DNA of 26,373 nt from IMG/VR virus record IMGVR_UViG_3300021356_000141, positions 1 to 26,373 of that record; one strand, 5' to 3'. This DNA comes from a virus. This document shows, piece after piece, positions 806-22,006 of the stretch; the first letter of the stretch is position 1; every line of letters starts with the position of its first letter. Made by a program: the position numbers and the translations under genes. Under the pieces are notes generated by a model. The model ran no database searches and was not told the origin of the DNA. It was given only the letters and a program-made list of their open reading frames with translations.

Positions 806-1596
806 CCCCAATGTTTTTTAACCCAACTATCATTTGCATCTGCAGGATTGGGATCTCCGTGGAACACTGCAATGCTTGTGTGTCTGTTAATACGTGGTGG
901 AGCATCTATTACAAAATTACGTTTTCTTGTGTGAGTATCTATTTTCAAATCTCGCCTATCACGCATTTCCCATTTGTAACTCATTATCCATTCATCAGGC
1001 CAAAATTTATGATCTTTGATATTTGCAAACATCCAATCTTGGTCTCCTCTATGCCTACCCATTTCTCCTCCAGTGTTGTTGTAAAACCGTCTCCATTTGT
1101 CATCATACTTACCTATTGGTATTCTAAAAACACTGCTGTTCATTCTATCCCAACGTTGTCTAATACTCCTGTTAAAATCTCGACAAATTACAAATTCACC
1201 AGTTTCATACTCAAATAGTTTATCAATATTTTTAAAAATAATAACATCTAGGTCTACAAATAATAGTGTACCTCTAATAGGCAAATCTCCTCCTAAAAAC
1301 ATCGGTTTATACCACCACCCCTGGGCTTGAAGTTTTGGTAAGCCAAATGTTTGTATATTAGGATCTAATCCTGATTTATTTTCAGTGAAACAAACAAACT
1401 CGTGATCAATTGTGCAAAATTTTTGTGTTTGTTTATAGAGCTTATTGACATACTCTGCTGAGTATTTGTCTCCCCATTTTAAGCAAGCAATGTAATTTTT
1501 TTTCGTGCTATCTTTAATTAACTTTGCTTGCTTTTCTTTTGCTTTTCGTGCTTTACGTTCTGCTTTAGTTTCACCTGGAATTATATTTTTAGGCAT
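802..1596 (-). CDS. GT-A-fold glycosyltransferase-like protein
   Basis: A 264-residue protein resembling small phage and bacterial GT-A glycosyltransferases. The nucleotide-sugar/metal motif is the DLD of LLFVDLDVIIF, residues 115-117. A conserved GWWYKP stretch sits about 20 residues earlier, and a GDQDWM motif follows near residue 195, as in GT8-like enzymes. The first 35 residues are rich in Lys and Arg. I chose the ATG at 1594-1596, which overlaps the queD stop by 8 bases. An in-frame ATG at 1633-1635 would add 13 residues but force a 47-base overlap. The acceptor cannot be read from the sequence; host surface glycan, phage DNA base or protein are all possible. The fold is fairly sure, the specificity unknown. 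Confidence 0.7.
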   Translation of the reverse strand: MPKNIIPGETKAERKARKAKEKQAKLIKDSTKKNYIACLKWGDKYSAEYVNKLYKQTQKFCTIDHEFVCFTENKSGLDPNIQTFGLPKLQAQGWWYKPMFLGGDLPIRGTLLFVDLDVIIFKNIDKLFEYETGEFVICRDFNRSIRQRWDRMNSSVFRIPIGKYDDKWRRFYNNTGGEMGRHRGDQDWMFANIKDHKFWPDEWIMSYKWEMRDRRDLKIDTHTRKRNFVIDAPPRINRHTSIAVFHGDPNPADANDSWVKKHWG

Positions 1597-2038
1597 CGTG
1601 TTTATATATTGCGCTGTTTGCTCCGTGTTCTGCACACTCTACTTCAACGCAACTACAACGTCCGTTTGTCATTTCTTGCACAAGTTCATTTGCTTGTTTC
1701 CACGCATGATATGCAAACTTTTCTACACCTACACCATCAAGTACTGTAAGTTCAGCAAGACCTTTTTCTTGTAAATCTTCAAATGTTGCCATTTCAGGAT
1801 CTTCTTTGTCTAATACAACCTTGTGATCAAATGTATCTTCGAGCCAGGCTTTTAGTGGTTTTAGTCCACCAAAATCAACTACCCAGTTCTTTTCATCTAA
1901 TTCGCTTGCTGCAAATGTAAATTTAAATTGCAGACTATATCCGTGTAAAAATCTGCAATGGCTATGTGCTTTAGGTTGTCTAAAGCAGGCGCTTAGTCCG
2001 ATGTTGTGCCCATATGTTTTTGTGCTATAGTAACTCAT
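1589..2038 (-). CDS. queD: QueD / 6-pyruvoyl-tetrahydropterin synthase-like protein with altered zinc site
   Basis: A 149-residue T-fold protein of the 6-carboxytetrahydropterin synthase (QueD)/PTPS family. QueD makes 6-carboxytetrahydropterin on the way to the 7-deazaguanines preQ0 and queuosine. Cys28 sits four residues before His32 in CRFLHGY, matching the family spacing CxxxHGH, and DFDHK-like DHK lies at 71-73. Of the three canonical zinc ligands only His32 is visible by alignment: the first is Phe19 (ACFRQ where the family has AAH) and the third is Tyr34 (HGY for HGH). His25 and His27 could substitute. I recall this HGY form from marine alphaproteobacterial and phage relatives, so it may be a distinct subfamily. 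It has a strong AAGGAG ribosome site and its own promoter. No queC, queE or queF is in the window, so the pathway role is inferred. Confidence 0.75.
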   Translation of the reverse strand: MSYYSTKTYGHNIGLSACFRQPKAHSHCRFLHGYSLQFKFTFAASELDEKNWVVDFGGLKPLKAWLEDTFDHKVVLDKEDPEMATFEDLQEKGLAELTVLDGVGVEKFAYHAWKQANELVQEMTNGRCSCVEVECAEHGANSAIYKHDA

Positions 2039-4487: not shown

Positions 4488-4530
4488 CCCTCCTATAGTT
4501 TGTTATAGCAAATAGTTTTAAGGCTGTCAA
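4488..4530 (-). promoter_or_regulatory. strong sigma-70-type promoter and ribosome site for the phosphoesterase
   Basis: TTGACA (4525-4530) and TATAAC (4502-4507) have a 17-base spacer on the minus strand. They are followed by a GGAGG Shine-Dalgarno (about 4488-4494) before the ATG at 4483. The promoter overlaps the stop codon of the last radical SAM operon gene, marking the operon boundary. Confidence 0.75.
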
Positions 4531-5345
4531 CCTAAATTATAGTCACGAGCTAATTGTCTTACCCACATCTGATGTGCTTGATGCAAAGGATGTAAGCCTG
4601 GACCTAATGGATGACCTCCTTTTGCCCATTCATAAAATCCTTCTTGTGGAAACTTGTCTACGTAGTAAATTTTGTACTCATCAATTCTTTCTAGAATATT
4701 ATCAGTATAAAAATCTCTTTCATAAGGGTCATTTGTATTTTTGTAATAAAAATGGTCTCCAAAACCAAAACATTGTATACTTTTAATATCGTGTAATTTC
4801 AAAAATAAATTAACATATTCAATTTGTGTTAAACTATCAAAAGTATAATTAATAGGATGATTTAGATGGCCATACATTGTATTACTCAAAGCAAATAAAT
4901 TATTTTTTTCCAAAAATGTTTTTCTAGTATTGTTATTTGCAATAGCGCCAGTTGGTGATTTTTTTAAATTTGATTTTGTGTCAGTAGGAAGTAAAGTGAT
5001 AAAATTATTTTCCAAACTGTTTTTATGTATATTTGGATTATATTCTTGTGTTACCCTAATATCTCTACGATACATACTAGTCCACATTATACATACAATT
5101 ATGTTTTTTGCATTGTTAGTCTTTAACAAATCAGTTACATTTTTTACAACACGTCTTGCAATGCTATAATTACTACTTCCTGTTGTAGCTCTGCTCATAA
5201 ACGTGTAATCTTGAAAAAAATTTTTGTGTAATATTGCACTCCAAACAGTGTCGCATTCTTCATACCCTGTATCAGGATTTATTCTCCAAGAGTTGTGTTC
5301 TGCTCCTGCCATTAAACTGCATCCATCACTATATAAAATTTTCAT
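4527..5345 (-). CDS. SGNH-hydrolase-like protein (third SGNH gene of the cassette)
   Basis: A 272-residue protein. The N-terminus MKILYSDGCSLMAG matches SGNH block I, with GCS in place of GDS and Ser10 as predicted nucleophile. A block III-like segment IVCIMWTSMYRR lies near residues 84-95, and the C-terminal GLHPLHQAHQMWVRQL has the block V His. SGNH enzymes are esterases, lipases or carbohydrate O-acyl transferases/esterases. The opening MKIL..GCS is shared with the SGNH gene at 6321-7049, so the two are probably paralogues. The start overlaps the upstream stop as ATGA. It is the last gene of the radical SAM operon. Fold confidence is good; activity and substrate are unknown. Confidence 0.7.
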   Translation of the reverse strand: MKILYSDGCSLMAGAEHNSWRINPDTGYEECDTVWSAILHKNFFQDYTFMSRATTGSSNYSIARRVVKNVTDLLKTNNAKNIIVCIMWTSMYRRDIRVTQEYNPNIHKNSLENNFITLLPTDTKSNLKKSPTGAIANNNTRKTFLEKNNLFALSNTMYGHLNHPINYTFDSLTQIEYVNLFLKLHDIKSIQCFGFGDHFYYKNTNDPYERDFYTDNILERIDEYKIYYVDKFPQEGFYEWAKGGHPLGPGLHPLHQAHQMWVRQLARDYNLG

Positions 5346-6331
5346 TTAAATTTCCTAAAGATTAACAGAGAATCATCATTGTTTGTATTTGTAAAAGCAG
5401 CCCATTTTACAATTTGCTTTTTGTATTTGGCCTTTAGATATGAATTCATACTTTTTACTTTTACTTCGGCAACATTTGGATCAACATCAAAATTAAATTT
5501 AAAATATAATTTATCGTTATCTAAAAGTATTTCCCCATCTATATTAAATCTATCAGGAATATAACTAAGTGTTTTTTCAATGTTTATACCTTTTGTACTT
5601 TTAGATTCACACACTCCGTTGTCATAACTCATAATTTTTACTTTTTGTAAATCAACACCTCTATCTTGACAACTAATCCTAAAATATTCCACTGATTTTA
5701 ATGTAGGTAAAAACACACAATTAATATCATATTTTTGCACCACGTGAGAAATTTTATCAATTCCTAATTTCATATCATTGTATCCCAATGAAAAGTGTGC
5801 CTGAACAGGAGTGCATAAAGATGGAAAAAGAAATTTACACAATAAAGGCCTATTAGTGTAACGGGTATGTAAAACATTGCCATGAATATTCATTTTCTCA
5901 AAATTATTCGTTAATGGCTCGTCAAAAATTAAACTTGTGCCTTTTTGTTTGTATTCATAGTTTTTACTGAATTTTAAATCAGCCAAATCAAAATAGTTAT
6001 AATTTTTAATTTGGTGAAATCCAAAAACATCTAGTTCACTATCTGCTAACGTGTGTATAATTAATTCTGGATCTTTATCCACTATGTTAAAGTCACATTC
6101 TATTGCGGCAAAACACACTGCAATAGTGTCTAGGCTGGTTTGATTAAAATGCAATTGTATATTTGCGTTAGGTTGTAATTTACAATACCCTAAGAAAATA
6201 TTCTTCCAATGATCAATCCTGTTAAACAGGGTTTGTTTTTTTACGCCTGTTTCTTCCATAAATCCACTGCGGAAGTTAAATTCATTTGTTTTGTAAAGAA
6301 AGTCGTCTCTTATAATATTTCTATTCAACAT
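5342..6331 (-). CDS. unknown protein between SGNH genes (possibly degenerate adenylate-forming enzyme)
   Basis: A 329-residue protein without a clear family. Residues about 40-85 (HWKNIFLGYCKLQPNANIQ and on to an alanine-rich AVCFAAIECDF helix) resemble the N-terminal part of adenylate-forming (ANL) enzymes, and a later segment, KYDINCVFLPTLKSVEYF, resembles the region after their P-loop. The canonical P-loop (TSGTTGxPKG) and the usual GE motif are not visible, so if related it is degenerate or catalytically altered. It is probably soluble. It overlaps the upstream SGNH stop by 11 bases and the downstream start as ATGA, so it belongs to the cassette. The ANL idea is a guess from eye alignment. 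Confidence 0.6.
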   Translation of the reverse strand: MLNRNIIRDDFLYKTNEFNFRSGFMEETGVKKQTLFNRIDHWKNIFLGYCKLQPNANIQLHFNQTSLDTIAVCFAAIECDFNIVDKDPELIIHTLADSELDVFGFHQIKNYNYFDLADLKFSKNYEYKQKGTSLIFDEPLTNNFEKMNIHGNVLHTRYTNRPLLCKFLFPSLCTPVQAHFSLGYNDMKLGIDKISHVVQKYDINCVFLPTLKSVEYFRISCQDRGVDLQKVKIMSYDNGVCESKSTKGINIEKTLSYIPDRFNIDGEILLDNDKLYFKFNFDVDPNVAEVKVKSMNSYLKAKYKKQIVKWAAFTNTNNDDSLLIFRKFK

Positions 6332-7049
6332 AATTTAATTTCCTTAGATAACCTTCTAAACGATTTGCCCACGCTTGATGACCATCAGCTAAAAAATGCC
6401 AGCATTCCGTTTTTTCATAACCCCAGTGCATGAGATACTGTATCATCACAAAATCTAAATCAAAAGGTTCTATGTATTTGTCTAAATTGAGTTTATCTAT
6501 AATTTTTTTGTTAATGTCTAATCTAGGCATTGGTTCACAAGTATTACTCATCAAATAAGGTATATTATAATTTTCAAAAGTGCATTGTAATGCATAAGCC
6601 CAAGTTGCCCACCTTAAAGATTCTAGTTCTAAGTCTATTAGGTAAGGTGTATAATCTAACATTTTGGATATTCTTTTATCAGCAAATAAATTTGGGTTTG
6701 TACCTACAGTGAATGGTACACTTTTTAAATCAATATAATCGCCAAGTGTTTTATGTGTGAAACTACTGTTTTCAGTATAACGAAATTCACAACGTAATCT
6801 ACTAGTCCAATTTACCAAAAACAAATACTCGTTGTTTTTGTCATAATGATTAGTAATATATTCTATTGCACTACGTTGTATGTATTGGTTACTGCCTCCT
6901 GGTTTGCTTATGTTTACAAGTTGATATCCAAATTTATTTGCAAGCATTGCAGGAAAACCATTCCTAACATTATATTCACTACTGCCATTTATACCATCAA
7001 TCATACTACCGTTTGTATGACTACAACCTAATGCAACTAATATTTTCAT
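6321..7049 (-). CDS. SGNH-hydrolase-like protein (second SGNH gene of the cassette)
   Basis: A 242-residue protein with the best preserved SGNH features of the three. Block I is LGCSHTNG (residues 7-14, Ser10 as nucleophile). Block II-like SKPGGSNQYIQRSAI, with its conserved Gly-Ser-Asn, lies near 48-62, block III-like LVNWTSRLR near 78-86, and ADGHQAWANRL near the C-terminus carries the block V Asp/His pair. No signal peptide is seen, so it should act in the cytoplasm. ATGA start/stop overlap with the upstream SGNH-like gene implies translational coupling. The activity is likely acyl-ester hydrolysis or transfer; the substrate is unknown. Confidence 0.75.
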   Translation of the reverse strand: MKILVALGCSHTNGSMIDGINGSSEYNVRNGFPAMLANKFGYQLVNISKPGGSNQYIQRSAIEYITNHYDKNNEYLFLVNWTSRLRCEFRYTENSSFTHKTLGDYIDLKSVPFTVGTNPNLFADKRISKMLDYTPYLIDLELESLRWATWAYALQCTFENYNIPYLMSNTCEPMPRLDINKKIIDKLNLDKYIEPFDLDFVMIQYLMHWGYEKTECWHFLADGHQAWANRLEGYLRKLNYVE

Positions 7050-7648
7050 AGAACAGAACCTGCTGTAATTTTTTGTTCTAAAAACTCACTCCATCTTATA
7101 TGAGCAGATTCATCTAAAGTAGAATACTTTTCTTTTTCTAAAAAGTATTTCATACTAGAATCTTTGTTCAAAGGATTGTGGTATTTTCTTGCATTTATTG
7201 CTTTTAACACACCTAGTGTTTTATCATTAAACAAAATACAATCTTGTGTATTATACATATAATATTTGATATTGGCTTTTTCTAAAACTTGTTGTACCAA
7301 AAATGCTTCTGTTGCCCAATGTTGAGACAACAATAAATCATTAAAAATTACATCATCAAAATTGTGTAAACTGTTAATACCATTATCATTGTATTCTCGT
7401 AATTCAGGACGATAGGTAAAAATTTTATCTTTCCACCAAACTTCTCTACGCTTAGTGTTTGTCCAACCTATAAGAAAAAAATTGTTGATATTATCTTCTA
7501 GTGAATATTCTATAACTTTTCGGAATATTTGATTATTACAAGTATCAATTTCTGCAACATCGCAAAAATTATAACCTAAACTTTCAGCGAGGTATTTTGG
7601 TGCAGCATCTCCTTTCACTAACTCGTCGCCAAAACTTATTAGATTCAA
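7046..7648 (-). CDS. SGNH-like protein lacking the nucleophilic serine; TTG start
   Basis: A 200-residue protein. Starting at the TTG at 7646-7648, which makes a TTGA overlap with the upstream stop and has AGGAG seven bases before it, gives MNLISFGDELVKGD. This aligns with the start of the SGNH paralogue downstream. Where GDS proteins have the nucleophilic Ser there is Glu (GDE). The block III-like segment FLIGWTNTKRREVWW is kept, and a C-terminal DESAHIRWSEFL keeps the block V His. It is therefore probably a non-hydrolytic paralogue, or one using other chemistry, perhaps a partner of the two other SGNH proteins. A farther upstream TTG (7666) would add six residues. The fold call is moderate. 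Confidence 0.65.
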   Translation of the reverse strand: MNLISFGDELVKGDAAPKYLAESLGYNFCDVAEIDTCNNQIFRKVIEYSLEDNINNFFLIGWTNTKRREVWWKDKIFTYRPELREYNDNGINSLHNFDDVIFNDLLLSQHWATEAFLVQQVLEKANIKYYMYNTQDCILFNDKTLGVLKAINARKYHNPLNKDSSMKYFLEKEKYSTLDESAHIRWSEFLEQKITAGSVL

Positions 7649-8982
7649 AAATAATCTCCTATCCAAGGTATATAATCGTGTATACTAATTTTTCTAAATT
7701 TATCGCTGGCATTTGTATTATCAATAAAAACTTGCCAGTCTCCTTCGTCAGGTTCTTGATTAAGAACATTTTTTAAATTAATAATGTTTTCAACTGCCCA
7801 CTGTTCCCAATCTGGAAGTTCAGCTGCTTTAAATCTTGCATACTGTTCTTCCAACATGGTATTCATTAAATCTTTGCGCTCTTGTGGTAAGTTTCTTATA
7901 TTTAAATATCGAGGTTGTTCTACTATATTAAAGTGAGGTAAGCAATTTTGATATCCAAAATTTCCCCACGCCCATGTATAATGCCATTCATCATACTGTT
8001 TCTTACACCAGTCTAGCAAGTTAGGCAAGTCGTGCATATTCAACAAGCTCAGTGTGACGTGTGTATGTACAAGAACACCTTTACGTGTAGCACTAAACTC
8101 TTTTAGTTTTTGTACATTACGTTCTACAATCTTCCACTTGCTAGGATGCCTTACATAGTATGCTAGGTCGCCTACAGCATCAATACTAAGGCTAAGTATT
8201 ACACCACGGAACTTGTCCCAAATGTTTAGCAGTCTGTCTGGTATGGTTGTAGCATTTGTGTTGTAATGTAGCTCAATGTTTTTGCTCCAACCTTTGTCAA
8301 TAATGTGTTCAAGCCAAGCATAGTGTTCTTCAACAACTAACGGTTCACCTCCAATAAAGTTTATCACACGTACATTGGGCAACACATCATCATAGAAGCC
8401 TTCTGCAAATGCACGTACAAACCAAGGATTTTCACTGCTTAGTTTTGCAATATGATATGCAGTTTTATCCCAATCAGTGTGCGGAACTGTTGGTCCTTCT
8501 TCAATCCATCTATGACTTGCCCAAGGATTGCAACTACGACATTTTAAATTACACACATTACCTAAACTAATATCCAAGTATGTAATTGCTTCTGGATTAA
8601 TGCTACCATCTTCATTTAAATTTTTTAATGTTTCGTCAATATGATCTTCGTATATTTCATTCCACGTTTGTCTAAAACTACGTATTCCTTGCTCTTCAAG
8701 TCCGAAACAACCTTTACATCCATCAGGCACATCGTCACTCATAAGCTGTTTACGTACTTTCATTATTTCAGGATCGTTTATAAAATCAAACAAATTTTCT
8801 GCATTTTTATTCCCGTGATGTTTCCATTCGAAAATATTGTTTATTTGCACACCAGGCATATAAGTATTGGTATTCATTCTACTAAAGCAACAAGGTCTTG
8901 TTCTACCATGACCGTGTGTGCTAAATCCTTGATTTGCAAGATAACAATAATTTTTTGGTAATTTATCTAATTTTTTCTGCAT
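7645..8982 (-). CDS. twitch/SPASM-type radical SAM protein (fourth twitch paralogue)
   Basis: A 445-residue radical SAM enzyme. The [4Fe-4S]/SAM motif CNLKCRSC follows LDISLGNV near residue 145, and FIGGEPL near 215 is the GGEP SAM-binding motif. Before the core is a cysteine domain with Cys13, Cys31-Cys32 and a CKGC pair near residue 89, followed by FGLEEQGIRSFRQ. This is the signature usually found C-terminal to the core in SPASM/twitch enzymes, and it probably holds an auxiliary cluster. A YYVRHPSKW stretch near 280 recurs in its paralogues. The start is the ATG at 8980-8982; GTG at 9057 would force a 95-base overlap. Such enzymes modify peptides, sugars or nucleosides; the substrate here is unknown. 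Confidence 0.85.
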   Translation of the reverse strand: MQKKLDKLPKNYCYLANQGFSTHGHGRTRPCCFSRMNTNTYMPGVQINNIFEWKHHGNKNAENLFDFINDPEIMKVRKQLMSDDVPDGCKGCFGLEEQGIRSFRQTWNEIYEDHIDETLKNLNEDGSINPEAITYLDISLGNVCNLKCRSCNPWASHRWIEEGPTVPHTDWDKTAYHIAKLSSENPWFVRAFAEGFYDDVLPNVRVINFIGGEPLVVEEHYAWLEHIIDKGWSKNIELHYNTNATTIPDRLLNIWDKFRGVILSLSIDAVGDLAYYVRHPSKWKIVERNVQKLKEFSATRKGVLVHTHVTLSLLNMHDLPNLLDWCKKQYDEWHYTWAWGNFGYQNCLPHFNIVEQPRYLNIRNLPQERKDLMNTMLEEQYARFKAAELPDWEQWAVENIINLKNVLNQEPDEGDWQVFIDNTNASDKFRKISIHDYIPWIGDYF

Positions 8983-9955
8983 ACTCTGGCCTTGCTTTAC
9001 TAATGTTAAAATCTGCTGCACAGTGACAATGTGACTTTGGACACCAAACACCGTCACTCATTGTTGTATTAAACTCGCCTTGTACAATATTGCCTACAAT
9101 AGGACCTACACCACAACTTGCTTGCTGTATGCGTCCGTTAGGGTGTATATGCAAACTTTCGTGTATATTGCACAGCCAACCTTGGAAGAAGTTTTTGCCT
9201 TCTGTAATAATACTATTGGTGTTAATAGGTTCAATAGTATCATCTTCAAACCAAGTTTTTGCCCACGCATAACTTGGGTCCTTTTGCACAGGAATAGATT
9301 GCTGCTGCACAGTGCTGTTGGTTTTAAAGAAGTCCATTTGCCATTGTTCATTATAATGATACGGATCTGTGCTAGGACGTAATTCGTCATATACAGGTGC
9401 ATATTCTATCATATAGTTGTCACATTCTTCTCTAATTCTATCTCCAAAATCAATACATTGTTGGAAATAATCGTGATGCATCATTATACGTGAACACAAA
9501 TAGTTTTTCTTATCTTGCAAAAATTTATACACTTCTATGTATTTGTCATCTTTACTCCATTCTGCATGATAGCTTGCAACAATATCCTCAAACAAATGAT
9601 GATTTTCTTTCCACCAACTCAACGGTTTACTAAAATTAGTATTAATACCCACACAACTTCCTGGCCATTTTGCGTGTTCTCTAAACTTCTCTACAACAGG
9701 AATTAATGCTTTCCAAAAGGTCGGTTCGCCTCCACTAAGATATAATTTAAAATATTCATATCCTTTATCTTTATAATGCAACATAATTTTTTCTAGTGTA
9801 TCTACTATCAAAGGAATATCATGATCGTTTCGGTTTCTGCCTGCCCAATTCCATTCACTACAATATGTGCAACGGAAGTTGCACCAATCGTTGACTTGCC
9901 AAACTATACTTACCCATTTATCTTTTGCTGGGATAATTGCTTTTATGTCTTGCAT
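8963..9955 (-). CDS. radical SAM protein with C-terminal cysteine cluster
   Basis: A 330-residue radical SAM enzyme. CNFRCTYC at residues 25-32 is the SAM cluster motif and LSGGEPTF at 73-80 the GGEP motif. Unlike its twitch neighbours it lacks the N-terminal cysteine domain. Instead the last 70 residues hold a Cys in GWLCNIHESLHIHPNGRI, an ASCGVGPIVGNI stretch and a CPKSHCHCAAD cluster, which together look like a C-terminal twitch/SPASM-type auxiliary site. The ATG overlaps the upstream stop by 13 bases. Architecture is of the peptide- or carbohydrate-modifying type; the reaction cannot be named. Confidence 0.85.
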   Translation of the reverse strand: MQDIKAIIPAKDKWVSIVWQVNDWCNFRCTYCSEWNWAGRNRNDHDIPLIVDTLEKIMLHYKDKGYEYFKLYLSGGEPTFWKALIPVVEKFREHAKWPGSCVGINTNFSKPLSWWKENHHLFEDIVASYHAEWSKDDKYIEVYKFLQDKKNYLCSRIMMHHDYFQQCIDFGDRIREECDNYMIEYAPVYDELRPSTDPYHYNEQWQMDFFKTNSTVQQQSIPVQKDPSYAWAKTWFEDDTIEPINTNSIITEGKNFFQGWLCNIHESLHIHPNGRIQQASCGVGPIVGNIVQGEFNTTMSDGVWCPKSHCHCAADFNISKARPEYAEKIR

Positions 9956-11151
9956 ACGTCTTCCAATATGTAATTAAGTGTAGGAAATATATCTGCAAAA
10001 TTGTATCTTCTATACTTGTCGTTGATTGCAATAAATTGTTTCATACGTGTAATGTTTTCTGCAGAATATTTATTAGTATTCTGTGTGTAGTTAATGATTC
10101 TTTGAACAGCGTCTGCGTGTAATTTTGTTTCTAGTGTAAACAACTTGCCTATTACTTTGTGTTGTATTTCTCTTGGCCATACGCAACTGTGCAGTTGATC
10201 AGGGTGTTCGAGAAAAATAGGCACAAAGTCTACACGTCTAGTTTGACGTTTTTCAAGCCAACGAATTAATCTGTCTACATCAAACACATTCCACGCTTGA
10301 TAGACAAAGTAAATTTTTAGTTGTACTTTTTCAGGCAACCGCATTGCTTTATCAAAGTTTTCTTCTACTTTGTTCCAATCTGTAGGATAACGTATATACA
10401 TATTATGATCACCGTATCCATCAATGCTCATCTGCACTTCGCTTGAATCAAAGAAGTCTAGTTTATCATAGAATCCTTCTGGCCATGTTGTCATATTAGT
10501 AGTCCAAGCTACATGACATTTAGTATTACCTACTTCAACAAGTTTATCTAATACATATTGATTTGCTTGTATTAGTGTAGGCTCACCACCTGTCATATAC
10601 AAACGTTCTAATGTTGGTGCCACTGTATCTACAAAGTCACGGAACTCTTGTGTTTCATACCATTGCCAATCGTGTGCTTCTACACTACGTATTTCGTGTT
10701 GCCATTGATCATTCAACCAGTCTGGCACAGTTTCATTTGCTAGTATTTTCTTACGTTCTTTGTATATGTTGTCGCTGCTTACACTCCAACAACTGTTACA
10801 CTTTAAGTTGCAGTGATTTCCGAGACGTAATTCCAGGTGAGTAGGATTGCTATGCAGTAATGGTTGTTTATAGTTTTTATTAGCCCATTGCCTACTACTT
10901 TCAAGACCTTTTTCTTCGTGCTCGTAGCAGCGACTACATTCTTTAACAGGCTTGCCTGCTAACATATTGGCACGAACATTTAACATATATTCACCGTTCC
11001 AAATATTTTCCCACTTGTCTTTACCAAGTATAGCATCGTGTCCGTCTGCTTGTATGTAATCTTCACTGTAAACATGGCAGCACAACTTACATCTGCCGTC
11101 TGTATTTGTATGCACATTTATAAATGGGTATATACAAAAGGTATTACTCAT
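9943..11151 (-). CDS. twitch/SPASM-type radical SAM protein (third twitch paralogue)
   Basis: A 402-residue enzyme of the same permuted architecture. The N-terminal domain has Cys6, CKLCC at 21-25, an IWNGEYM segment, and a CSRC pair followed by YEHEEKGLESSRQ. The core has LRLGNHCNLKCNSC and MTGGEPTL, and MYIRYPTDW matches the motif shared by the paralogues. The start is the ATG at 11149-11151 in an ATGA overlap with the B12 radical SAM gene; the open frame extends nine codons further upstream without need. It is more divergent from the first two paralogues than they are from each other. Likely an oxidoreductase using SAM and two iron-sulfur clusters, substrate unknown. Confidence 0.85.
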   Translation of the reverse strand: MSNTFCIYPFINVHTNTDGRCKLCCHVYSEDYIQADGHDAILGKDKWENIWNGEYMLNVRANMLAGKPVKECSRCYEHEEKGLESSRQWANKNYKQPLLHSNPTHLELRLGNHCNLKCNSCWSVSSDNIYKERKKILANETVPDWLNDQWQHEIRSVEAHDWQWYETQEFRDFVDTVAPTLERLYMTGGEPTLIQANQYVLDKLVEVGNTKCHVAWTTNMTTWPEGFYDKLDFFDSSEVQMSIDGYGDHNMYIRYPTDWNKVEENFDKAMRLPEKVQLKIYFVYQAWNVFDVDRLIRWLEKRQTRRVDFVPIFLEHPDQLHSCVWPREIQHKVIGKLFTLETKLHADAVQRIINYTQNTNKYSAENITRMKQFIAINDKYRRYNFADIFPTLNYILEDVCKT

Positions 11152-13307
11152 ACTGTCCACTTGCCTTTGCCTTTCCAATCATACTCGAAACTAAAATCTA
11201 AATTTCTAGTAACTAAAAAATCTTTTTCGTGTTGTGTGAATGTATCAACATCATAAGCATTGTAAGGATCTCTTTTTGCTTTATCAGTACCTTTCCACGC
11301 TAACTTACGTGCTCTAATAACACTGTTGCTGTTATCTCTTGTGAAATCCATAATACTCCATACTGGGCTCCAAGGGTCTGGACTCATTTTCATAGCACCG
11401 TTTTCTATCCAGTATTTGTCATTCCAATCTGTGTATTCGTCTTGTTCATAGTTCCACCAAAAGTCAGCAGTCCAATTTCCATCATCGTCTATTTCAAAAT
11501 CGTATTCTGCATTCAGTGGAGCAGCATTACGCTCACCCCATTCTTCGTATTCCCATTCTTTTTTGAATTTAAGATTGAGTTTATATCCACCACGTGTTCT
11601 CCATACAACACGTAAGAACGGCCATATTTCGTTTACAAGACTATCTGCAAAATTACTAATGCCCGGTTTAATAATCTCATAATCAAAGTCGTCATAATCA
11701 TAACGTGCTTCTAGTTCTTTGTCAGGATCATTGAACTCAATATCATAATGAAACTTTGCTAAATTATGTCTAGTAGGTTTGCTACAAATTTTTTCAGTGT
11801 TTAAGAAATCTGTAAAAATACTAAAACATTTCATTCTTATAAGTTTGTGGACAATGCTAAGTTTATGATCTTTTGTAATCCAATGGTCATAATAGTAAAA
11901 AGGAGACAAATTAAATTTGTCGAAGTTTTGTCCTACAATAGTATCAACACCAACACTGAATCCTGTGCCTTGACTTATAGCAATTAATCCTTGATCTTTA
12001 ATACGATATAAAAATGTAAGAGTATCTTCTAATTCTTTTGGCCCTTCATTAGGAAAGCCTACAATCCAATTGGTCATTGCATCGATGCCCACTGCATAAC
12101 CATCACTAAAGTTGGCTTCCATTTCTTCAACAGTAACTTTCTTGTCCATTAAGTCTAGCACAACTTGACTACCTGACTCGATACCATAATTAAGAACTTC
12201 ACAGCCACCTGCTTTTAAATCTTTGTAATAATCCAAGTCCATACGTCCATCACAACGACAATAACCTGTCCAATGTATATCTAGTCCTTTTTCTGCGACA
12301 CCATTTACAAATGCACGTAACTCATTAAGATTACCATTAACTAAACTATCAATAAACCAGTAAACATTGGTTCCGTGTTCATAATACATATGTTCTATTT
12401 CTTGTACAGTGCTAAGTGCATTACGCTGTCTATATTTCCAAAAGTGTGTTTCTTCACAAAACGTACATTTAGCAATACAACCACGTGATATTTCACACAA
12501 GGCACCGTTAGGAAATAGATAGTTACTAAAATCAAAATCGCTATAATCTGGCAAAGGCAACGTGCTGAGATTATATCTTTGATTTTCAGGTTGTCTAATA
12601 ATTTTACTTTTTTCTTCTTCTGTGTAATCTATACCTTTTTTATTTTCTATACTTGCTAACGCTACTAGTAATGGTTGTTCGCCTTCACCATTAACAACGT
12701 AATCAAAAAGATTATCTCCTTTGTAATAACTGCTGTGTGTGCTAGGACCACCTACCATTGTTACTACATTTGGTAAACGCTTTTTTATCTCCATTGCCAT
12801 ATATTTTGTTGGTGCTGTGTTACAGTAATATAAAGTAAATCCTACAACATCTGGCTTGAAGTCTACTATTTGTTGAATTTTTTCTTGTAATAAAGGTTCT
12901 AGATGCGGATGAATATCATCGTAATAATGTTCTTCTAACCAATGCCAATCACGTAGAGGATCCCACGGATTAAAATTAATAGGCCATTTTTCTTCATGAT
13001 ATATTCTGTACGATTCAACATTGATATCAAAACTTTTGACTGCATAACCTGCACGTTTAGCTGCACTAGCTAATTTAGCTGTATTATAAGGAGGAAAGCT
13101 AGGATCCCATTCAGGCAATAGACAAAGACAAAGTCTAGTTTTCCTGTTGACTTTGTATTCTATTTCTAAATTATCTAATCCTTTTTGTACAGGTTTGCTG
13201 TATTTTGCAATTGCTGCAAGAGTGGCTACGTGTTTATCTTCAGCTAAAGTTCCTGTAGGTCTTTCAGGAATTTTCCTGTTTTTATCTTTTTGGTCAAAAA
13301 ATCCCAT
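11148..13307 (-). CDS. B12-binding-type radical SAM protein with aromatic C-terminal extension
   Basis: A 719-residue class B-type radical SAM protein. Residues about 57-215 form a cobalamin-binding-like Rossmann domain (PPYNTAKLASAAKRAGY; KPDVVGFTLYY; VTMVGGPSTH; VVNGEGEQPLL) without an obvious DxHxxG base-off histidine. The radical SAM core begins at 271, with SRGCIAKCTFC supplying Cys277, Cys281 and Cys284, and includes the family motif NYGIESGSQ. From about residue 490 comes a 230-residue extension unusually rich in Trp, Tyr, Asp and Glu, ending KGKGKWTV, which I do not recognise. Relatives methylate or rearrange unactivated carbons. It is joined to the gene before by TAATG and the gene after by ATGA. 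Confidence 0.88.
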   Translation of the reverse strand: MGFFDQKDKNRKIPERPTGTLAEDKHVATLAAIAKYSKPVQKGLDNLEIEYKVNRKTRLCLCLLPEWDPSFPPYNTAKLASAAKRAGYAVKSFDINVESYRIYHEEKWPINFNPWDPLRDWHWLEEHYYDDIHPHLEPLLQEKIQQIVDFKPDVVGFTLYYCNTAPTKYMAMEIKKRLPNVVTMVGGPSTHSSYYKGDNLFDYVVNGEGEQPLLVALASIENKKGIDYTEEEKSKIIRQPENQRYNLSTLPLPDYSDFDFSNYLFPNGALCEISRGCIAKCTFCEETHFWKYRQRNALSTVQEIEHMYYEHGTNVYWFIDSLVNGNLNELRAFVNGVAEKGLDIHWTGYCRCDGRMDLDYYKDLKAGGCEVLNYGIESGSQVVLDLMDKKVTVEEMEANFSDGYAVGIDAMTNWIVGFPNEGPKELEDTLTFLYRIKDQGLIAISQGTGFSVGVDTIVGQNFDKFNLSPFYYYDHWITKDHKLSIVHKLIRMKCFSIFTDFLNTEKICSKPTRHNLAKFHYDIEFNDPDKELEARYDYDDFDYEIIKPGISNFADSLVNEIWPFLRVVWRTRGGYKLNLKFKKEWEYEEWGERNAAPLNAEYDFEIDDDGNWTADFWWNYEQDEYTDWNDKYWIENGAMKMSPDPWSPVWSIMDFTRDNSNSVIRARKLAWKGTDKAKRDPYNAYDVDTFTQHEKDFLVTRNLDFSFEYDWKGKGKWTV

Positions 13308-14542
13308 TACATTATTCCTTGTAATTCTGGGAATATTTCATACACATTTTCGTTACGCATACCATCCATTTTGTTTGTTTTCCAGTACCACATTTTTAAT
13401 TCAGATGTTCTATCTTGTTCCATAAATTGCAAAATGTTTTTGTAGTCCTGTATCACACTATCTATATTTTTTAATTTTTCGTTTTTATTATTATCAAACT
13501 GTTTCAAATAGTTAATATGTTCTTCATATCTTTTATGCACTTGTTCTTTTATCCAAGGAGGTAATATGCTTAAACGCATATAAGTTGGATCCAATAGTAT
13601 GTTAATTCTAATATTAGCAGGTTCTAATAATCCTTCTTCAATCCATTCTTTGTGGAAATCGCAAATGTTTAGCACATTGTAAACACTTACAGTAGGAGTT
13701 AATTCAAAGTAAACGTGCGGACATTGCTCAATCATATCACGTCTATTTTGCACAACCTGTGTCCAATCCATATTTTTACGCAGATATTCTCCTCGCTTAT
13801 GATTTGCATCTAAACTTGCTGCTACTCTTACATTATCAAACGCATTCCAATACTCAAATGCTGTTTTACGCTTGTAACGCATTTGTGTAAAGTTTGTGGT
13901 GTAGTCCATTGCTACATTACGTTTGCCCATTTCAATCCATTTGTCAAGTATACGGTAATGTTCATCTGTGATAAGTGGTTCGCCGCCAGCCCAATACACA
14001 CGTTCAACGCTGCCTAACAATGGTTCAAGTTCGTCCATAAAGTTTAACATATCATCACGTACTTTGAGTATCTTATTGTGTCCAGGATCTCCGTATGCTG
14101 CTTTGTGATCTTCAAACCAACTACTGCTGAACTGGGGTCCACAACTGCGACACTTTAGATTGCACAAGTTGCTAAAACGTATGTCTAGGTAAGCCATATT
14201 AACATCACCAGCACTGCCGTCATCGCTTGTAGCATCAACTTTGTCCCAATGGTTTTTGCCAAAATTGTTTATGCTACCTTGACGTAGTGTGCCCATTCCG
14301 TTTTCTTCTAGTTCGTAACAACGTCTACATTCTTTACTTGGTTTATCTTGCAACATATTCATTCGCAGTTCACGTATTTCAGGACCGTTCCAAATATCCT
14401 GTAAACTTTGTGTTTGTGTATCTCCCACAGGGTGAGCAGGATCGCTCATACAACAAGGATATGTAGTGCCAGCTGGCCACATATGTAAATGTATCCAAGG
14501 CATCATACAAAAATGTTTACTGTTTTTTAATTTATCAGACAT
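13307..14542 (-). CDS. twitch/SPASM-type radical SAM protein (second twitch paralogue)
   Basis: A 411-residue radical SAM enzyme. The N-terminal cysteine domain has HFCMMPW (Cys12), YPCC (Cys30, Cys31), IWNGPEIRELR, and CRRC (Cys72, Cys75). The core follows with SNLCNLKCRSC (Cys127, 131, 134) and WAGGEPL near 184-190. A GEYLRKNMDW segment corresponds to the shared Y-x-R-x4-W motif. It is the closest relative of the next gene upstream: the DDGS, RFSNLCN and CRSCGPxFSSxW blocks match nearly residue for residue, so this is probably a tandem duplication. It starts within the upstream stop (8-base overlap ATGTCTGA). Substrate unknown. Confidence 0.88.
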   Translation of the reverse strand: MSDKLKNSKHFCMMPWIHLHMWPAGTTYPCCMSDPAHPVGDTQTQSLQDIWNGPEIRELRMNMLQDKPSKECRRCYELEENGMGTLRQGSINNFGKNHWDKVDATSDDGSAGDVNMAYLDIRFSNLCNLKCRSCGPQFSSSWFEDHKAAYGDPGHNKILKVRDDMLNFMDELEPLLGSVERVYWAGGEPLITDEHYRILDKWIEMGKRNVAMDYTTNFTQMRYKRKTAFEYWNAFDNVRVAASLDANHKRGEYLRKNMDWTQVVQNRRDMIEQCPHVYFELTPTVSVYNVLNICDFHKEWIEEGLLEPANIRINILLDPTYMRLSILPPWIKEQVHKRYEEHINYLKQFDNNKNEKLKNIDSVIQDYKNILQFMEQDRTSELKMWYWKTNKMDGMRNENVYEIFPELQGIM

Positions 14543-15755
14543 ACAAATCCTTTAGTTCTGGGAATACACGTAAAAAGTTTTCTCCACGCTTCAAATCTAA
14601 CTTTTGCATTTCTTCTCTAAACTTTGGAATAAAATGACTGTCATCTTTACTATACATAAAATTTATAATATTGTCTATACCATCTTGCAAAAATTGTTTA
14701 CGAGTAGGATAAATTATTTTTTGTTCATATAAAGATTCTACATCTTGTTTAAACAATTCTAAACTTTGCTTTGCTTTGTCTTTAATATGTTCTGGTAATA
14801 TTGTTATACTCAACCATTCTGGCCCAACCAATATATTACTGAAGTTAATATCATAATCTGTAGGAATTTTGTGTTCATACAAAAACTTTACAATATCAGC
14901 CAAATCTAAAATATTAAGGACACTAATAGTAGGATTAGGTTGTATAATTACGCCTTTATCATAACTGTGATCAAAATTATCACGTATATAACAAAGATTG
15001 TTAAACACAGTTTCCCATGATTGTCCATTACGTGTGTATTCTGCTTTTGCACCCATTTGATCTAAACTAACACAATAAAAGATTTTATCAAAGTGTTTCC
15101 AGTAATCAGTAATATGTTTTCCTTTAAGGCTTAGGCGTGTTGCGTTGCTGTTGTATGTCAGTCTCGGTTTGAGTCCACGCTCTATGAGCATATCTAGCAA
15201 TCTATAATGCTGTGGCATAAACAAACTTTCGCCGCCTGTAAAATATACTTCTTCTATTGTAGGCAGTATTTCTTCTATTTCTTCCCACATCTCAGGATGG
15301 TTGATTTCTACTATTTCAGGTTTACCAACAATATCTTCAGCCCACTTGCTGCTGAAGTGCGGTCCACAACTACGACACTTCATATTACAAAGGTTACTAA
15401 AACGTACATCAAAATATGCCAAGTTCATTTGTTCTACGCTACCGTCATCACTGGTGGTTTGTACCAAATCATAATGATGATTGTATTCTGTGTTAAATTT
15501 GTGTCTATAACTTATAACACCTTGTTCTTCATATTTGATACACTTTTCACATCCTTGACTACTTACGTTGTTTAACATTCGTAGCCTAAGCTCACGCATT
15601 TTTTCACTGTTCCATACTCCTTTGAAACCAGCTTCATTGATATTACCAACTGGCATATCCCAATGATAAATGCAGCAAGGATATGCATCTCCGTTTTGCC
15701 ATACGCTCATATGTGTCCACGGAGCCATACAAAAATGTTTTTTAAATTCTGTCAA
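14535..15755 (-). CDS. twitch/SPASM-type radical SAM protein (first twitch paralogue); TTG start
   Basis: A 406-residue enzyme if started at the TTG at 15753-15755, which forms a TTGA overlap with the upstream stop and aligns the N-terminus (TEFKKHFCMAPW) with the tandem paralogue. The open frame begins at another TTG, 15794, which would add 13 residues and a 43-base overlap. The cysteine domain has HFC, YPCC and CEKC; the core has SNLCNMKCRSC and a GGES in place of GGEP; and AEYTRNGQSW is the shared motif. It is the second gene of the cassette, after the glycosyltransferase-like gene. The choice of start is inferred, the family is clear. Confidence 0.86.
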   Translation of the reverse strand: MTEFKKHFCMAPWTHMSVWQNGDAYPCCIYHWDMPVGNINEAGFKGVWNSEKMRELRLRMLNNVSSQGCEKCIKYEEQGVISYRHKFNTEYNHHYDLVQTTSDDGSVEQMNLAYFDVRFSNLCNMKCRSCGPHFSSKWAEDIVGKPEIVEINHPEMWEEIEEILPTIEEVYFTGGESLFMPQHYRLLDMLIERGLKPRLTYNSNATRLSLKGKHITDYWKHFDKIFYCVSLDQMGAKAEYTRNGQSWETVFNNLCYIRDNFDHSYDKGVIIQPNPTISVLNILDLADIVKFLYEHKIPTDYDINFSNILVGPEWLSITILPEHIKDKAKQSLELFKQDVESLYEQKIIYPTRKQFLQDGIDNIINFMYSKDDSHFIPKFREEMQKLDLKRGENFLRVFPELKDLYV

Positions 15756-16933
15756 TTTACTAACTCTACTATACTGTCTACAATAGTATTCCAACTTATC
15801 TTACGAGATAAGAACAGTTTTTGGTTATGTATTAATTTATCAAAATATTCATTTTTGATTTTTGTTTTTAATAAGTCAATACGTGTGTTTTTTATATTGT
15901 GCCAAAGTTTCATTGCTTGTGTATAATCGCTGACTACACTAACTCCAAATAATTCTTCAAATGTTTCGTATCCTCTTGCTCTTAACAAACTATGTTGTTC
16001 AGGGTTGCCTACAATAAAAAACGGATGAAGATTCATTATTGCTTTATATGTCTTTTCTGTAATAAAGTTTTTATGACTATCACTTTCTGTAATCACACTT
16101 AATATACTGTCATTGTAATAAGATTTTATACTATTTCCATAATTAATTACTTCTACCTTGTTTAAAACATCCAATTTTCTATTGTACATTTCACGTACAA
16201 GGGCCATTTTAAAATCACTGTGTAACTCTTCAGGAATACGTTTTAATGTATGATGTGACTTTGCACAAGCATCGTGTTCCGTGCTGTCAACTTCGGGTAG
16301 GTTATAACTTACATATCCTTCATTGATAATATTACTTCTAAGTATACTATACATAAGCCATATTCTATGTGGTTTAATATTGCGGTTTAAACACAGAAAT
16401 TTCTTAGATGCTTTATCAACATCAAATTCATCTGGATGAGTCAAAGATACATGAGGAAGTGTTTTGTGTTGATGCCTACTTAAACTTTCCCAAAAATTAA
16501 TGCTGATATATTTTATTCCTTCTAAAGTTTTATTATGTGCTTCTAAATCACAACATAGAACTATAACTTTGTCTATAGGTATTTTGTGCTTGTCAATTTC
16601 TCTACGCAATTCTTTTGGTTTAATAATACATTCAGTGACACTCACTAAACAATAAAATACATTTGGATCATTTCTTAACAATTTTAAAGTTTTTTTAGAT
16701 GGTTGTAGGGTGACCCATTCCGGCATATGTACGATGTTTAAAATAAACTTTTTTGTATCTTTATCTAAAAAATTCAAATGATTTATATGGTAGAAATTAC
16801 TATAGGTAAAATCATCATAGTGTCCAAACATATAATCAAAGGGCCTGTGATTTTTATCACCAGGTAAATCAAAAGTCAAACCACTGTAAGGAGTTTGTAG
16901 AATATTATCTACAAGGAAATAGCAATTGCTCAT
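15752..16933 (-). CDS. glycosyltransferase-like protein heading the radical SAM operon
   Basis: A 393-residue protein. The C-terminal half has FLCLNRNIKPHR (residues 179-190), then a Ser/Thr-Glu segment leading to FITEKTYKAIMNLHPFFIVG (290-309). This last stretch resembles the donor-binding motif of GT-B enzymes of the exostosin and fucosyltransferase (GT47/GT10-like) groups, where a Glu-Lys pair contacts the nucleotide sugar. The N-terminal half is an unrecognised alpha/beta domain. No signal peptide or membrane segment is seen. As the first gene behind the promoter at 16939-16966, it points to a glycan or glycoconjugate as the cassette's substrate. Family placement is by eye and moderate. 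Confidence 0.65.
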   Translation of the reverse strand: MSNCYFLVDNILQTPYSGLTFDLPGDKNHRPFDYMFGHYDDFTYSNFYHINHLNFLDKDTKKFILNIVHMPEWVTLQPSKKTLKLLRNDPNVFYCLVSVTECIIKPKELRREIDKHKIPIDKVIVLCCDLEAHNKTLEGIKYISINFWESLSRHQHKTLPHVSLTHPDEFDVDKASKKFLCLNRNIKPHRIWLMYSILRSNIINEGYVSYNLPEVDSTEHDACAKSHHTLKRIPEELHSDFKMALVREMYNRKLDVLNKVEVINYGNSIKSYYNDSILSVITESDSHKNFITEKTYKAIMNLHPFFIVGNPEQHSLLRARGYETFEELFGVSVVSDYTQAMKLWHNIKNTRIDLLKTKIKNEYFDKLIHNQKLFLSRKISWNTIVDSIVELVN

Positions 16934-16938
16934 ACTTT

Positions 16939-16966
16939 ATTATACGTTATTTTTTAGATTTTGCAA
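16939..16966 (-). promoter_or_regulatory. probable promoter of the radical SAM operon
   Basis: A perfect -10 TATAAT (16939-16944) with a weaker -35 TTGCAA (16961-16966) and a 16-base spacer on the minus strand. Only five bases separate the -10 from the first ATG, so transcription should begin at or near the start codon. There is no Shine-Dalgarno. The only other gap between genes in the cassette is the boundary at 4530. Confidence 0.5.
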
Positions 16967-20330: not shown

Positions 20331-21818
20331 TTAGTTGCTGCTTTTACTCACAGAACTCAATACGATCAATAACACACTGCTCACGATAAGACCTGGCACA
20401 ATAGGTTCTACAAAGTTGTAAACGCCCAAGTCATATGTAATGCCTGTGAACAGTTTTGACTCTTTGAAGTGTACGAACAAGATCCACGCAATACTTGTAC
20501 TAGCACCACCTAAGAAACTGATCAGCGCATTTGTACCGTTTGTTGCACCACGTGCCATAGCGATAACGTTGGGCAGCATAGCAGCACCAATAACACCAAA
20601 ATACAATGCTGTGGCTCTTGCAATAATAGCAGCCTGTCCGTTGAACGCCACTGTCATATACAATGCTAGTATGATAACCAAAATCATTGAACCATATGCA
20701 ACTGTGAGTTTAGGTTGCTCTGTGCTGATAATATCATTGCTGATAGTTGTGCTTAACAAGTGCATCAAACTGTTCAGTGTTGTAAATGCTGCTGCAAGTA
20801 CAGTTAGAAACAATGCACTAGACACCCAAGCAGGAAAGCCTGTTTTGATCCAGTATGGCACAATGTTTGCTGTACCGCCTGCTGCTTGCATCACTGTTAC
20901 ACCTTCTGTAGCAAATGTATAACTGTTTGCTGTAATAGCTGCTAACATAAACGAAATGATTGCCAGTGCCGGAATAACAATACCCCAACGTGCAATACTA
21001 GGAAAACTCTCTGCATCTTTGGCTAACATCCAACGTGTTTGTAGTTGTGGCAATGCAATAAGTCCTACTGGAATAGTGAATACCAACAGTGTGACGATCA
21101 TCAACCAACCTCTGCTCCAAAACTCAGGCCACGAATCAAATCCAGTGAAGCCCAGTTTGTACAAGCCATCGTCTGCAGGAACTGCTGTCCAAGCACCTAC
21201 AAGGTTGTTCCAAAAGTCTGGCGTTTGCATATGCGAAAAGAATGTAATCCCAAGCACAATAAGAGAACCTGCTACAACAACAAGTCCTTGCACCATATCA
21301 TTTTTAATAACACTGTTGATACCGCCATATGCGATCGTAGCAAACACAAGCACACTGAATCCTACAACTGCTAGTGTGAAGTCAATGCCTGTGAATGTTG
21401 TAATAAACTTGCCTACGCCAATCAATACTGCTACACAATAAAATGGAATAAGCCCTACTGTGATTAGGGCGAGCAGTTTTGATAGTGCTGGTGAGTTGTA
21501 GTATTTGCCAATCAACTCAATATAGGTTTTAGCACCAATGCGTTGATTTGCTTGCCATACTTTAGGACCTACATACACAGTGGCAAAATAGATTAGCCCT
21601 ACAAATGGTATTACCATTGTGAGAGGTACTGAGAATCCAATCCAGCCCGCGAGGCCGCCGAAGCCTATAATAGCACTTGTAGAGATAAGTGTTGCACCAT
21701 AGGAAAGTCCTAGGTTTAGGTTGCTGTCTGAAGTTGTCATAAAGTAGTCATCACCTTTTGACCTGTAGGCAACATAACCTACAACTGCTACAAACAACAG
21801 CATTAAAATAATATTCAT
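20331..21818 (-). CDS. sodium:solute symporter family transporter
   Basis: A 495-residue inner-membrane protein of the sodium/solute symporter (SSS) family, with about 13 hydrophobic segments spread over the whole length, the usual SSS topology. Family features include the early GLSYGATLISTSAIIGFGG stretch, corresponding to the first unwound sodium-site helix, then YGGINSVIKNDMVQG and ALPQLQTRWMLAKDAES, as in PutP/PanF-type members. Length is normal and no break is seen. The start is the ATG at 21816-21818, with TAAGGAG eight bases upstream; the open frame continues back into the tRNA region without meaning. The transported solute cannot be told. A full-length SSS transporter is very unusual for a phage. 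Confidence 0.9.
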   Translation of the reverse strand: MNIILMLLFVAVVGYVAYRSKGDDYFMTTSDSNLNLGLSYGATLISTSAIIGFGGLAGWIGFSVPLTMVIPFVGLIYFATVYVGPKVWQANQRIGAKTYIELIGKYYNSPALSKLLALITVGLIPFYCVAVLIGVGKFITTFTGIDFTLAVVGFSVLVFATIAYGGINSVIKNDMVQGLVVVAGSLIVLGITFFSHMQTPDFWNNLVGAWTAVPADDGLYKLGFTGFDSWPEFWSRGWLMIVTLLVFTIPVGLIALPQLQTRWMLAKDAESFPSIARWGIVIPALAIISFMLAAITANSYTFATEGVTVMQAAGGTANIVPYWIKTGFPAWVSSALFLTVLAAAFTTLNSLMHLLSTTISNDIISTEQPKLTVAYGSMILVIILALYMTVAFNGQAAIIARATALYFGVIGAAMLPNVIAMARGATNGTNALISFLGGASTSIAWILFVHFKESKLFTGITYDLGVYNFVEPIVPGLIVSSVLLIVLSSVSKSSN

Positions 21819-21840
21819 AAAATTTCTCCTTAAAAATATT

Positions 21841-22004: not shown

Positions 22005-22006
22005 GG

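Follow-up and report, generated by a model that had tools for sequence, protein, structure and literature searches.

The cluster and its layout

A chain of eleven genes, here lettered A to K, lies in the IMG/VR virus record IMGVR_UViG_3300021356_000141, whose 26,373 bases are the window analysed in this text (L numbers below denote individual loci, and G numbers the records or contigs related to the window). The chain consists of six genes for radical S-adenosylmethionine (SAM) proteins (E to J), one for a glycosyltransferase-like protein (K), three for SGNH-like proteins (A, C and D) and one, B, for a protein of unknown family. All eleven open reading frames (ORFs) read along the minus strand, K (16933-15752) being the first and A (5345-4527) the last, and their positions, with overlaps at all ten junctions, bear out what a sequence-only reading of this DNA had described as eleven chained genes on one strand. 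If the longest starts are taken, eight junctions overlap by 1-31 bases, K/J by 43 and F/E by 95. However, the counterparts of E in L019 and L022 begin only near Met26, and the true start of E is therefore probably near 8982, by which the F/E overlap would become 20 bases. The overlaps of 1-20 bases that had been claimed are thus nearly right.

Is the chain transcribed from a promoter of its own? A TATAAT, the putative -10 box (16939-16944, minus strand), stands five bases upstream of the ATG of K, and TTGCAA is found 16 bases further upstream. Four more genes precede K on the same strand, namely a cytidylyltransferase-like gene (CTtr), a DUF6267 gene and two unknowns, and the gap between CTtr and K is only 13 bases. 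Between 1500 and 21400 there are 93 promoter-like sites against 81.7 +/- 7.2 in shuffled sequences, and the TATAAT box alone is no better than chance. Among 16 loci inspected (L007 belongs to the same species as the window, and L014 and L015 form a single cluster), TATAAT, TATACT or TATTAT is located just before K in 13 of the 14 that have CTtr upstream; in the fourteenth, L045, the called start of K falls within CTtr. Both loci without CTtr (L122 and L130) are also without a TATAAT-like hexamer (0/2). Because the hexamer recurs in 13/14 of the CTtr-bearing loci, a promoter before K is likely, while a longer transcript starting upstream of K may also exist because of the 13-base gap and the four preceding genes.

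A conserved core and a variable remainder

IMG/VR was scanned with H, giving 22 and then 55 loci, and independently with F, giving 37 loci; L035, L037 and L038 were left out of the analysis. The 54 H ORFs (that of L027 is partial) form 32 clusters at 95% identity. The order K-J-I-H-G-F-E is complete in 10 of these 32 clusters, so that the set does co-occur in order across other genomes, and L045 represents an eleventh cluster, whose contig ends after G. In eight more of the 32 the set is reordered or without the leading K (e.g., I-I-G-H-F-E-k and J-I-H-G-F-E), and nine are distant sets with several radical SAM genes. Since order and content recur across lineages, the cluster is more than an accident of neighbourhood; chance clustering is ruled out by the conserved order in relatives together with the independent scan with F.

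Conservation is uneven along the chain. In the close loci L010-L024, orthologues of the radical SAM proteins are about 69-90% identical, F being among the most conserved (81-90%), and K is 36-62% identical, whereas D, C, B and A are 27-61% identical in their best segments or absent. L024 has no homologue of A to D, and an SGNH-like ORF is seen by eye about 2 kb beyond its E. Besides, H is not always present. The scan with F found at least five contigs with K-J-I-G-F-E and no H, among the 19 of 58 new loci that were listed. Where H would be, four of them have a 4-base overlap between I and G, and in the fifth, L122, a 211-amino-acid protein that looks SGNH-like by eye (6177-6812) sits exactly in the slot between I and G. 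No H was found elsewhere in any of these five records, which are fragments of 14-80 kb. The conserved unit is thus the seven genes K, J, I, H, G, F and E, with H as an optional member and A to D as a variable part, and the eleven-gene unit of the sequence-only reading has to be given up, since the SGNH genes and B diverge fast or are absent.

Described phages offer little for comparison. Megablast of 7645-16933 against 50,697 phage records found no relative, and in tblastn searches of phage records K had no match, H had only a partial match of 27% in two records of Streptomyces phage SF3, I matched Vibrio phages K566/K567 (22%) and, partially, Marine virus AG-345-D19 (24%), J matched K566/K567 (23%), and E matched 17 records, all below 60% identity and none covering 80% of the query. 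On these searches, a described phage relative was rejected. As for bacteria, a profile scan of genome contigs for H, made with two peptide patterns, gave one weak match (27%), which does not establish absence.

The radical SAM proteins

Each of the six proteins E, F, G, H, I and J has one CxxxCxxC motif; PF04055 is above its cut-off in five of them and I is above the cut-off of NCBIfam NF033640 (N_Twi_rSAM), so the count of six radical SAM genes made from the sequence stands. The cysteine layout had also been read correctly: the cysteine domains of E, G, I and J are N-terminal, H has a B12-binding domain, and F has C-terminal cysteines. Four of the six are predicted to be twitch (N_Twi) radical SAM proteins, namely J (14535-15794; 372.7 bits to NF033640, N-terminal SPASM 51.9 bits), I (13307-14542; 396.1 bits, SPASM 50.5 bits), G (9943-11178; 304.8 bits) and E (7645-9057, or to about 8982 with the probable start; 321.0 bits). 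Their matches span nearly the whole NF033640 model, whose curated cut-off is 170 bits, and in all four the twitch cysteine domain precedes the CxxxCxxC. F (8963-9955; PF04055 30.5 bits) has no N-terminal twitch, carries cysteines at 262, 281, 305, 310 and 312, and scores only 23.2 bits against the same cut-off of 170; judged by these scores, it is a radical SAM protein of another subfamily than N_Twi. When six genomes of one bacterial class were sampled for NF033640, none had a protein above the cut-off (0/6).

To what extent do the positions in the cluster correspond to separate proteins? In a set of 132 twitch proteins, the window's included, CxxxCxxC is found in 132/132 and a strict CC...CxxC before it in 106/132. 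In a quick tree of this set, in which 83 of the 132 rows were labelled with our own hidden Markov models (above 350 bits; built from the window, L010, L011, L016, L019, L022, L024 and L028) and 49 were unlabelled, each of the labels E, G, I and J is confined to one side of a single branch, with support values (Shimodaira-Hasegawa-like approximate likelihood ratio test) of 92, 99, 99 and 100, that of E being not starred. Labels E, G and I span both the close clusters and those of the L028 type, in which no labelled J occurs. The four positions look like old, distinct subfamilies. In five pairwise comparisons of the radical SAM genes, the proportion of nonsynonymous differences (pN) is 0.07-0.19 and that of synonymous differences (pS) is 0.58-0.77, and the genes are under purifying selection. 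These proportions are reported instead of the rate ratio dN/dS, which is unreliable here because synonymous sites are near saturation.

H (11148-13307), a B12-binding radical SAM protein with a long C-terminal extension, reaches 38.6 bits to PF02310 (cut-off 32.1) and 48.8 bits to PF04055 (cut-off 29.5), and by family it is predicted to bind B12. It does not reach the cut-offs of the named class B enzymes: ApyD 97.6 of 750 bits, BchE 91.7 of 481.35 and PhpK 86 of 600. Its C-terminal half has no domain in Pfam or NCBIfam scans, and a profile search of PDB gave three weak matches, TokK and CysS among them. Twitch/SPASM radical SAM enzymes often mature peptides, and it is conceivable that the twitch/SPASM and B12 enzymes of the cluster have a short ribosomal peptide as their substrate, which might be an antimicrobial or a signal, in the manner of ribosomally synthesised and post-translationally modified peptides (RiPPs). 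That the best NCBIfam matches of H include the RiPP enzymes ApyD and rSAM_ocin_1 (91.9 bits, cut-off 281.85) fits this idea, although these matches are far below the cut-offs. However, since the genes overlap, a precursor gene has no space among them (no systematic search covered short ORFs in other places), and distant clusters have nucleotide-sugar genes among their neighbours, so that we consider a peptide product unlikely.

The glycosyltransferase-like protein and the SGNH-like proteins

The first gene of the conserved core, K (15752-16933), encodes 393 amino acids without a match to any Pfam family. Its AlphaFold2 model (predicted local distance difference test, pLDDT, 84.2; predicted template modelling score, pTM, 0.81) shows a GT-B fold across the whole protein, in agreement with the one glycosyltransferase-like gene recognised from the sequence. 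In structure comparison (VIA-align) the closest is FUT9 (Z 12.0, root-mean-square deviation 3.8, 259 aligned residues), practically tied with T4 alpha- and beta-glucosyltransferases (Z 11.8-11.9; 11.9 for the beta-glucosyltransferase, BGT) and with the alpha1,3-fucosyltransferase 2nzw (Z 11.6); the best Foldseek E-value is 9.2e-5. A conserved TEK stretch in K may resemble GT10.

The tie with the T4 enzymes raises another possibility, that the radical SAM enzymes and a T4-BGT-like K hypermodify nucleic acid, either phage DNA or tRNA, together with QueD encoded nearby. A QueD-like gene is indeed present in the window (1589-2038, phrog_2389), and one is found in the flank of 7 of 25 loci, several of which are one phage and several of which end early. 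It is, however, the sole 7-deazaguanine gene noticed in the window, which is a fragment, no search having been aimed at others, and F is far below the QueE cut-offs (QueE_Clost 20.4 of 260.1 bits, Bsubt_queE 18.1 of 206.1 bits). Moreover, no QueD accompanies the core of L024 within the stretch covered, and neither SGNH proteins nor nucleotide-sugar neighbours would be expected beside such a system. Modification of nucleic acid is therefore regarded as quite unlikely.

Among the variable genes, C (6321-7049) scores 31.8 bits to DUF6071, and its AlphaFold2 model (pLDDT 93.1) has an SGNH/GDSL hydrolase fold, which superposes on TesA with Z 14.4 and root-mean-square deviation 2.7 over 159 residues. 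Both Ser and His blocks are present; in alignment A8, which includes A, S10 and H224 are nearly invariant and H218 is invariant (numbering of C). A (4527-5345) is SGNH-like with 29.3 bits to DUF6071. D (7046-7666) has only 13.8 bits, below the cut-off of 27, and in alignment A2 the serine of its block I is replaced, by GDE in the window, L011 and L016 and by GDK in L019, so D is probably not a serine hydrolase. Therefore, of the three SGNH-like proteins that had been proposed, A and C hold through the DUF6071 cut-off and C also through its fold, but D is below the cut-off and lacks the serine. B (5342-6331) stays as the one unknown protein as it had been called: it has no Pfam or NCBIfam family above cut-off and no PDB match, only a weak hit to phrog_16401 (E 0.049), and it is found in few relatives and is shortened in L016.

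Gene context and the probable product

What could such a set of genes make for a phage? Clues come from distant clusters, since related radical SAM sets in other orders occur near nucleotide-sugar genes. One such case is L052, whose neighbours comprise a cytidylyltransferase with a fused mannose-6-phosphate isomerase domain, a UDP-glucose/GDP-mannose dehydrogenase, a sugar C-methyltransferase, a Stf0 sulfotransferase and an epimerase. Neighbours were then surveyed with Pfam as 134 proteins of at least 150 amino acids outside E-J in 19 distant loci, some of them mutually related. Among the 25 of 32 families listed there are sugar C-methyltransferase (5), UDPG_MGDP_dh (5), Stf0 sulfotransferase (4), epimerase (3), carbamoyltransferase (2), mannose-phosphate isomerase (2), GT7 (2), DegT (1) and RmlD (1). 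As a control, 82 other ORFs of the phage contig G002 were scanned, and the sugar families are absent from the 25 of 82 families listed for them. Remote homologues stand in a similar context. Vibrio phage K566 has the order radical SAM, GT8, radical SAM, radical SAM and GT4-like (below cut-off), followed on the opposite strand by radical SAM and GT8, and two of its radical SAM genes exceed the N_Twi cut-off. A related radical SAM gene is likewise surrounded by glycosyltransferases and ABC exporters on plasmids of Methylomagnum ishizawai and Ca. Manganitrophus. At 21-25% identity, K566 and the two plasmids show context, not function. In K566 it was also observed that an annotated PagP adjoins an LpxC-like gene (by eye; L138 18730-19996) near the cluster of radical SAM and glycosyltransferase genes.

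The related records also seem equipped to supply iron-sulfur (Fe-S) clusters. N_Twi proteins above cut-off are present in 12 of the 12 related records tested and a gene for an A-type Fe-S carrier in eight of them; the carrier was not found in G003, G005, G006 and G009, records that may be fragments. G003 (L028, L033 and L034) is an 85.8-kb phage contig with 18 N_Twi matches, 12 above the cut-off and 6 weaker, and with nucleotide-sugar-like genes recognised by eye.

From these observations we favour, at a probability of about one half, a phage-encoded sugar-tailoring pathway whose product most likely enters an envelope glycan of the host. The twitch enzymes E, G, I and J, together with F, would act in turn on a sugar, whether free, bound to a nucleotide or part of a glycan from the start, and their steps might be oxidation, epimerisation, deoxygenation or similar reactions. 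H would contribute an optional B12-dependent step, plausibly C-methylation, K would transfer a sugar, and the SGNH proteins A and C would add or remove ester groups. The product would then join the host envelope glycan, so that the surface is converted during infection, and the A-type carrier would help to load the many Fe-S clusters. The envelope is proposed as the destination because of the gene context and the general role of such phage genes. If the acceptor differs between hosts, it would be understandable that K, C, A and B vary while the radical SAM core stays fixed. The sequence-only reading had proposed a coordinated modification pathway for a glycoconjugate, lipid or peptide; conserved order, purifying selection and rearranged related sets favour such coordination, although H is optional and the unit smaller than supposed. 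A glycoconjugate gains over a peptide because distant clusters hold nucleotide-sugar dehydrogenase, C-methyltransferase, epimerase, sulfotransferase and glycosyltransferases. As a more specific and less probable proposal, uncultivated jumbo-type phages may possess a modular radical-SAM assembly line, in which several fixed twitch enzymes are combined with a glycosyltransferase, a B12 module that can be absent and, frequently, an Fe-S carrier; it would build a sugar not made by any phage described so far and place it on the envelope, so that radical chemistry converts the surface of the infected cell.

Several points weigh against the pathway that ends in a host glycan. No nucleotide-sugar gene was recognised inside the cluster in the close relatives of the window, and the sugar context may not be transferable to the window because it comes from distant clusters, whose K-like proteins are weakly similar, and from the remote homologues. 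The control for the sugar families is one phage, with 25 of its 82 families listed, and 11 of the 134 surveyed neighbours are further radical SAM proteins. General family scans recognised no flippase or glycan polymerase among the scanned window proteins. That the fold of K matches T4 DNA glucosyltransferases equally well makes a nucleic acid target compatible with it. Finally, 4 of the 32 H clusters (L056, L057, L073 and L076) stand without radical SAM neighbours, and H thus has another setting as well; in L057 (2966-5116) its homologue is directly behind nrdB-like and glutaredoxin-like genes and is followed by a small gene and then by one that is PAAR-like (by eye). In L056 (9167-12064), a 518.6-kb contig, the H homologue is near an A-type Fe-S carrier-like gene (by eye).

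The nearest rival to the envelope destination is that the cluster acts on the virion itself, for example by an unusual sugar on tail fibres or by direct modification of side chains. In G002 the A-type carrier adjoins long fibre-like genes (by eye), about 8 kb beyond the last SGNH gene of the cluster. The Foldseek matches of K include SdgB, a protein glycosyltransferase. In the sections of PMC7029224 available to us, radical SAM cassettes lie in the host-recognition region of pelagimyophages. Still, the carbamoyltransferase, epimerase and C-methyltransferase neighbours and the plasmid homologues beside ABC exporters suit an envelope glycan at least equally, and we regard decoration of the virion as rather unlikely. 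The pathway might instead supply a diffusible small molecule, aminocyclitol-like or a cofactor, rather than a glycan. On the plus strand at 22146-24634 the window has in a row an amidinotransferase-like gene (by eye, no Pfam match), a 2-oxoglutarate-oxygenase-like gene (just below cut-off) and an aminotransferase gene, and homologues of the amidinotransferase-like (36%) and aminotransferase (26%) proteins lie among radical SAM genes in G003 (L034). This trio is, however, outside the operon and not found in every locus, while K and the sulfotransferase and epimerase contexts favour a polymer or a lipid-linked sugar; a diffusible product appears very unlikely.

If the envelope pathway is right, phages would have a new route to alter their hosts, and first functions for members of the twitch radical SAM family would become possible. 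The natural clusters without H and Vibrio phage K566 make the idea directly testable.

The phage and its other genes

To which phages does the window belong? Pseudomonas phages of about 287 kb, PA5oct among them, have a clamp loader with 55% identity to the one of G002, and u2429 of the window is 36% identical over 66% of its length to the same PA5oct-type phages. Judged by this pair of genes, the lineage seems to be related to jumbo myophages. A pelagimyophage identity was considered and rejected, the clamp loader (G002) and u2429 (window) being closest to PA5oct-type Pseudomonas jumbo phages. No phage record was found for DUF6267, and PF07068 (Gp23) was found in 0 of the 12 records and in none of the controls either, hence it is uninformative on phage type.

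Other genes may be mentioned here. The window encodes a membrane transporter, here in a phage, namely a sodium:solute symporter (20331-21896, minus strand; PF00474 68 bits); with the longest possible start its ORF would extend into tRNA-Trp, and the true start must be further in. Three consecutive tRNA genes (Trp, Leu and Ser; 21841-22096, minus strand) lie where gene direction switches. G002 (IMGVR_UViG_3300027859_000890) has three consecutive genes, for subunit II of cytochrome c oxidase, for Cox11 and for subunit I (L040 13989-16892, places by eye; Pfam COX2, CtaG_Cox11 and COX1, the last at 9.1e-159); COX1 was found in 1 of the 12 records, and since this is a single contig a chimera is possible. 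G002 also carries curli CsgG (L041 13477-16964; Pfam 5.3e-50) and CsgA/B-like repeats (by eye), which recall the curli genes reported for pelagimyophages. Finally, genes resembling 5-aminolevulinate synthase (L039 5977-7170), heme oxygenase (L041 10001-10534) and NfuA (L040 8839-9225) were noticed by eye in G002, and the first two would fit an alphaproteobacterial host. As far as the accessible text of PMC11480375 goes, a phage AlaS has been described and other hosts have also been proposed for such phages.

Comparison with known systems

Richness in radical SAM genes is already in print for marine viral genomes, at least in the portions of the sources at hand. The T4-like viral genome TARA_ERS488813_N000010 has 12 radical SAM genes and an A-type carrier, ATC (PMC5332604), the radical SAM cassettes of pelagimyophages are a variable part of a host-recognition island (PMC7029224), and radical SAM genes are prevalent in Tasman Sea samples (PMC7150976). 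With our cluster these viruses share many radical SAM genes per genome and the A-type carrier (PMC5332604) or radical SAM cassettes (PMC7029224), but the parts of the two reports consulted describe no conserved cassette, order, partner genes or substrate, and the lineage here is, by two genes, closest to PA5oct-like jumbo phages. Within open-licence PubMed Central articles, and as far as their available text goes, no function, conserved cassette or radical SAM glycan pathway in phages was found. Thus the claim that no phage system of this composition had been described holds for the cassette, but it has to be narrowed in view of the published radical SAM-rich genomes. Compared with the literature searched, the conserved cassette and the link to glycans are new; the enzyme families are known and their combination is new.

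The same family, NF033640, accommodates E, G, I and J, but its model represents a subfamily without a named reaction, and here four separate subfamilies recur together in a single phage operon, accompanied by F, by K and in most cases by H. With the class B radical SAM enzymes TokK, CysS, BchE and PhpK, H shares the B12-binding and radical SAM core, and differs in being below every equivalog cut-off and in having a C-terminal half without a recognised domain.

Phages convert host surfaces using simple transferases, and textbook serotype conversion is a simple glucosyl or acyl transfer, while radical SAM enzymes are usually oxygen-sensitive. A conserved block of five to six such enzymes, to which many records add an Fe-S carrier, would be a far costlier investment, and the product would have to be worth that cost, perhaps as a glycan blocking rival phages. 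The cluster shares with serotype-conversion cassettes, also discussed in PMC7029224, a phage-borne glycosyltransferase and an expected effect on the envelope, and it differs from them in its five to six radical SAM enzymes and in that no flippase was recognised.

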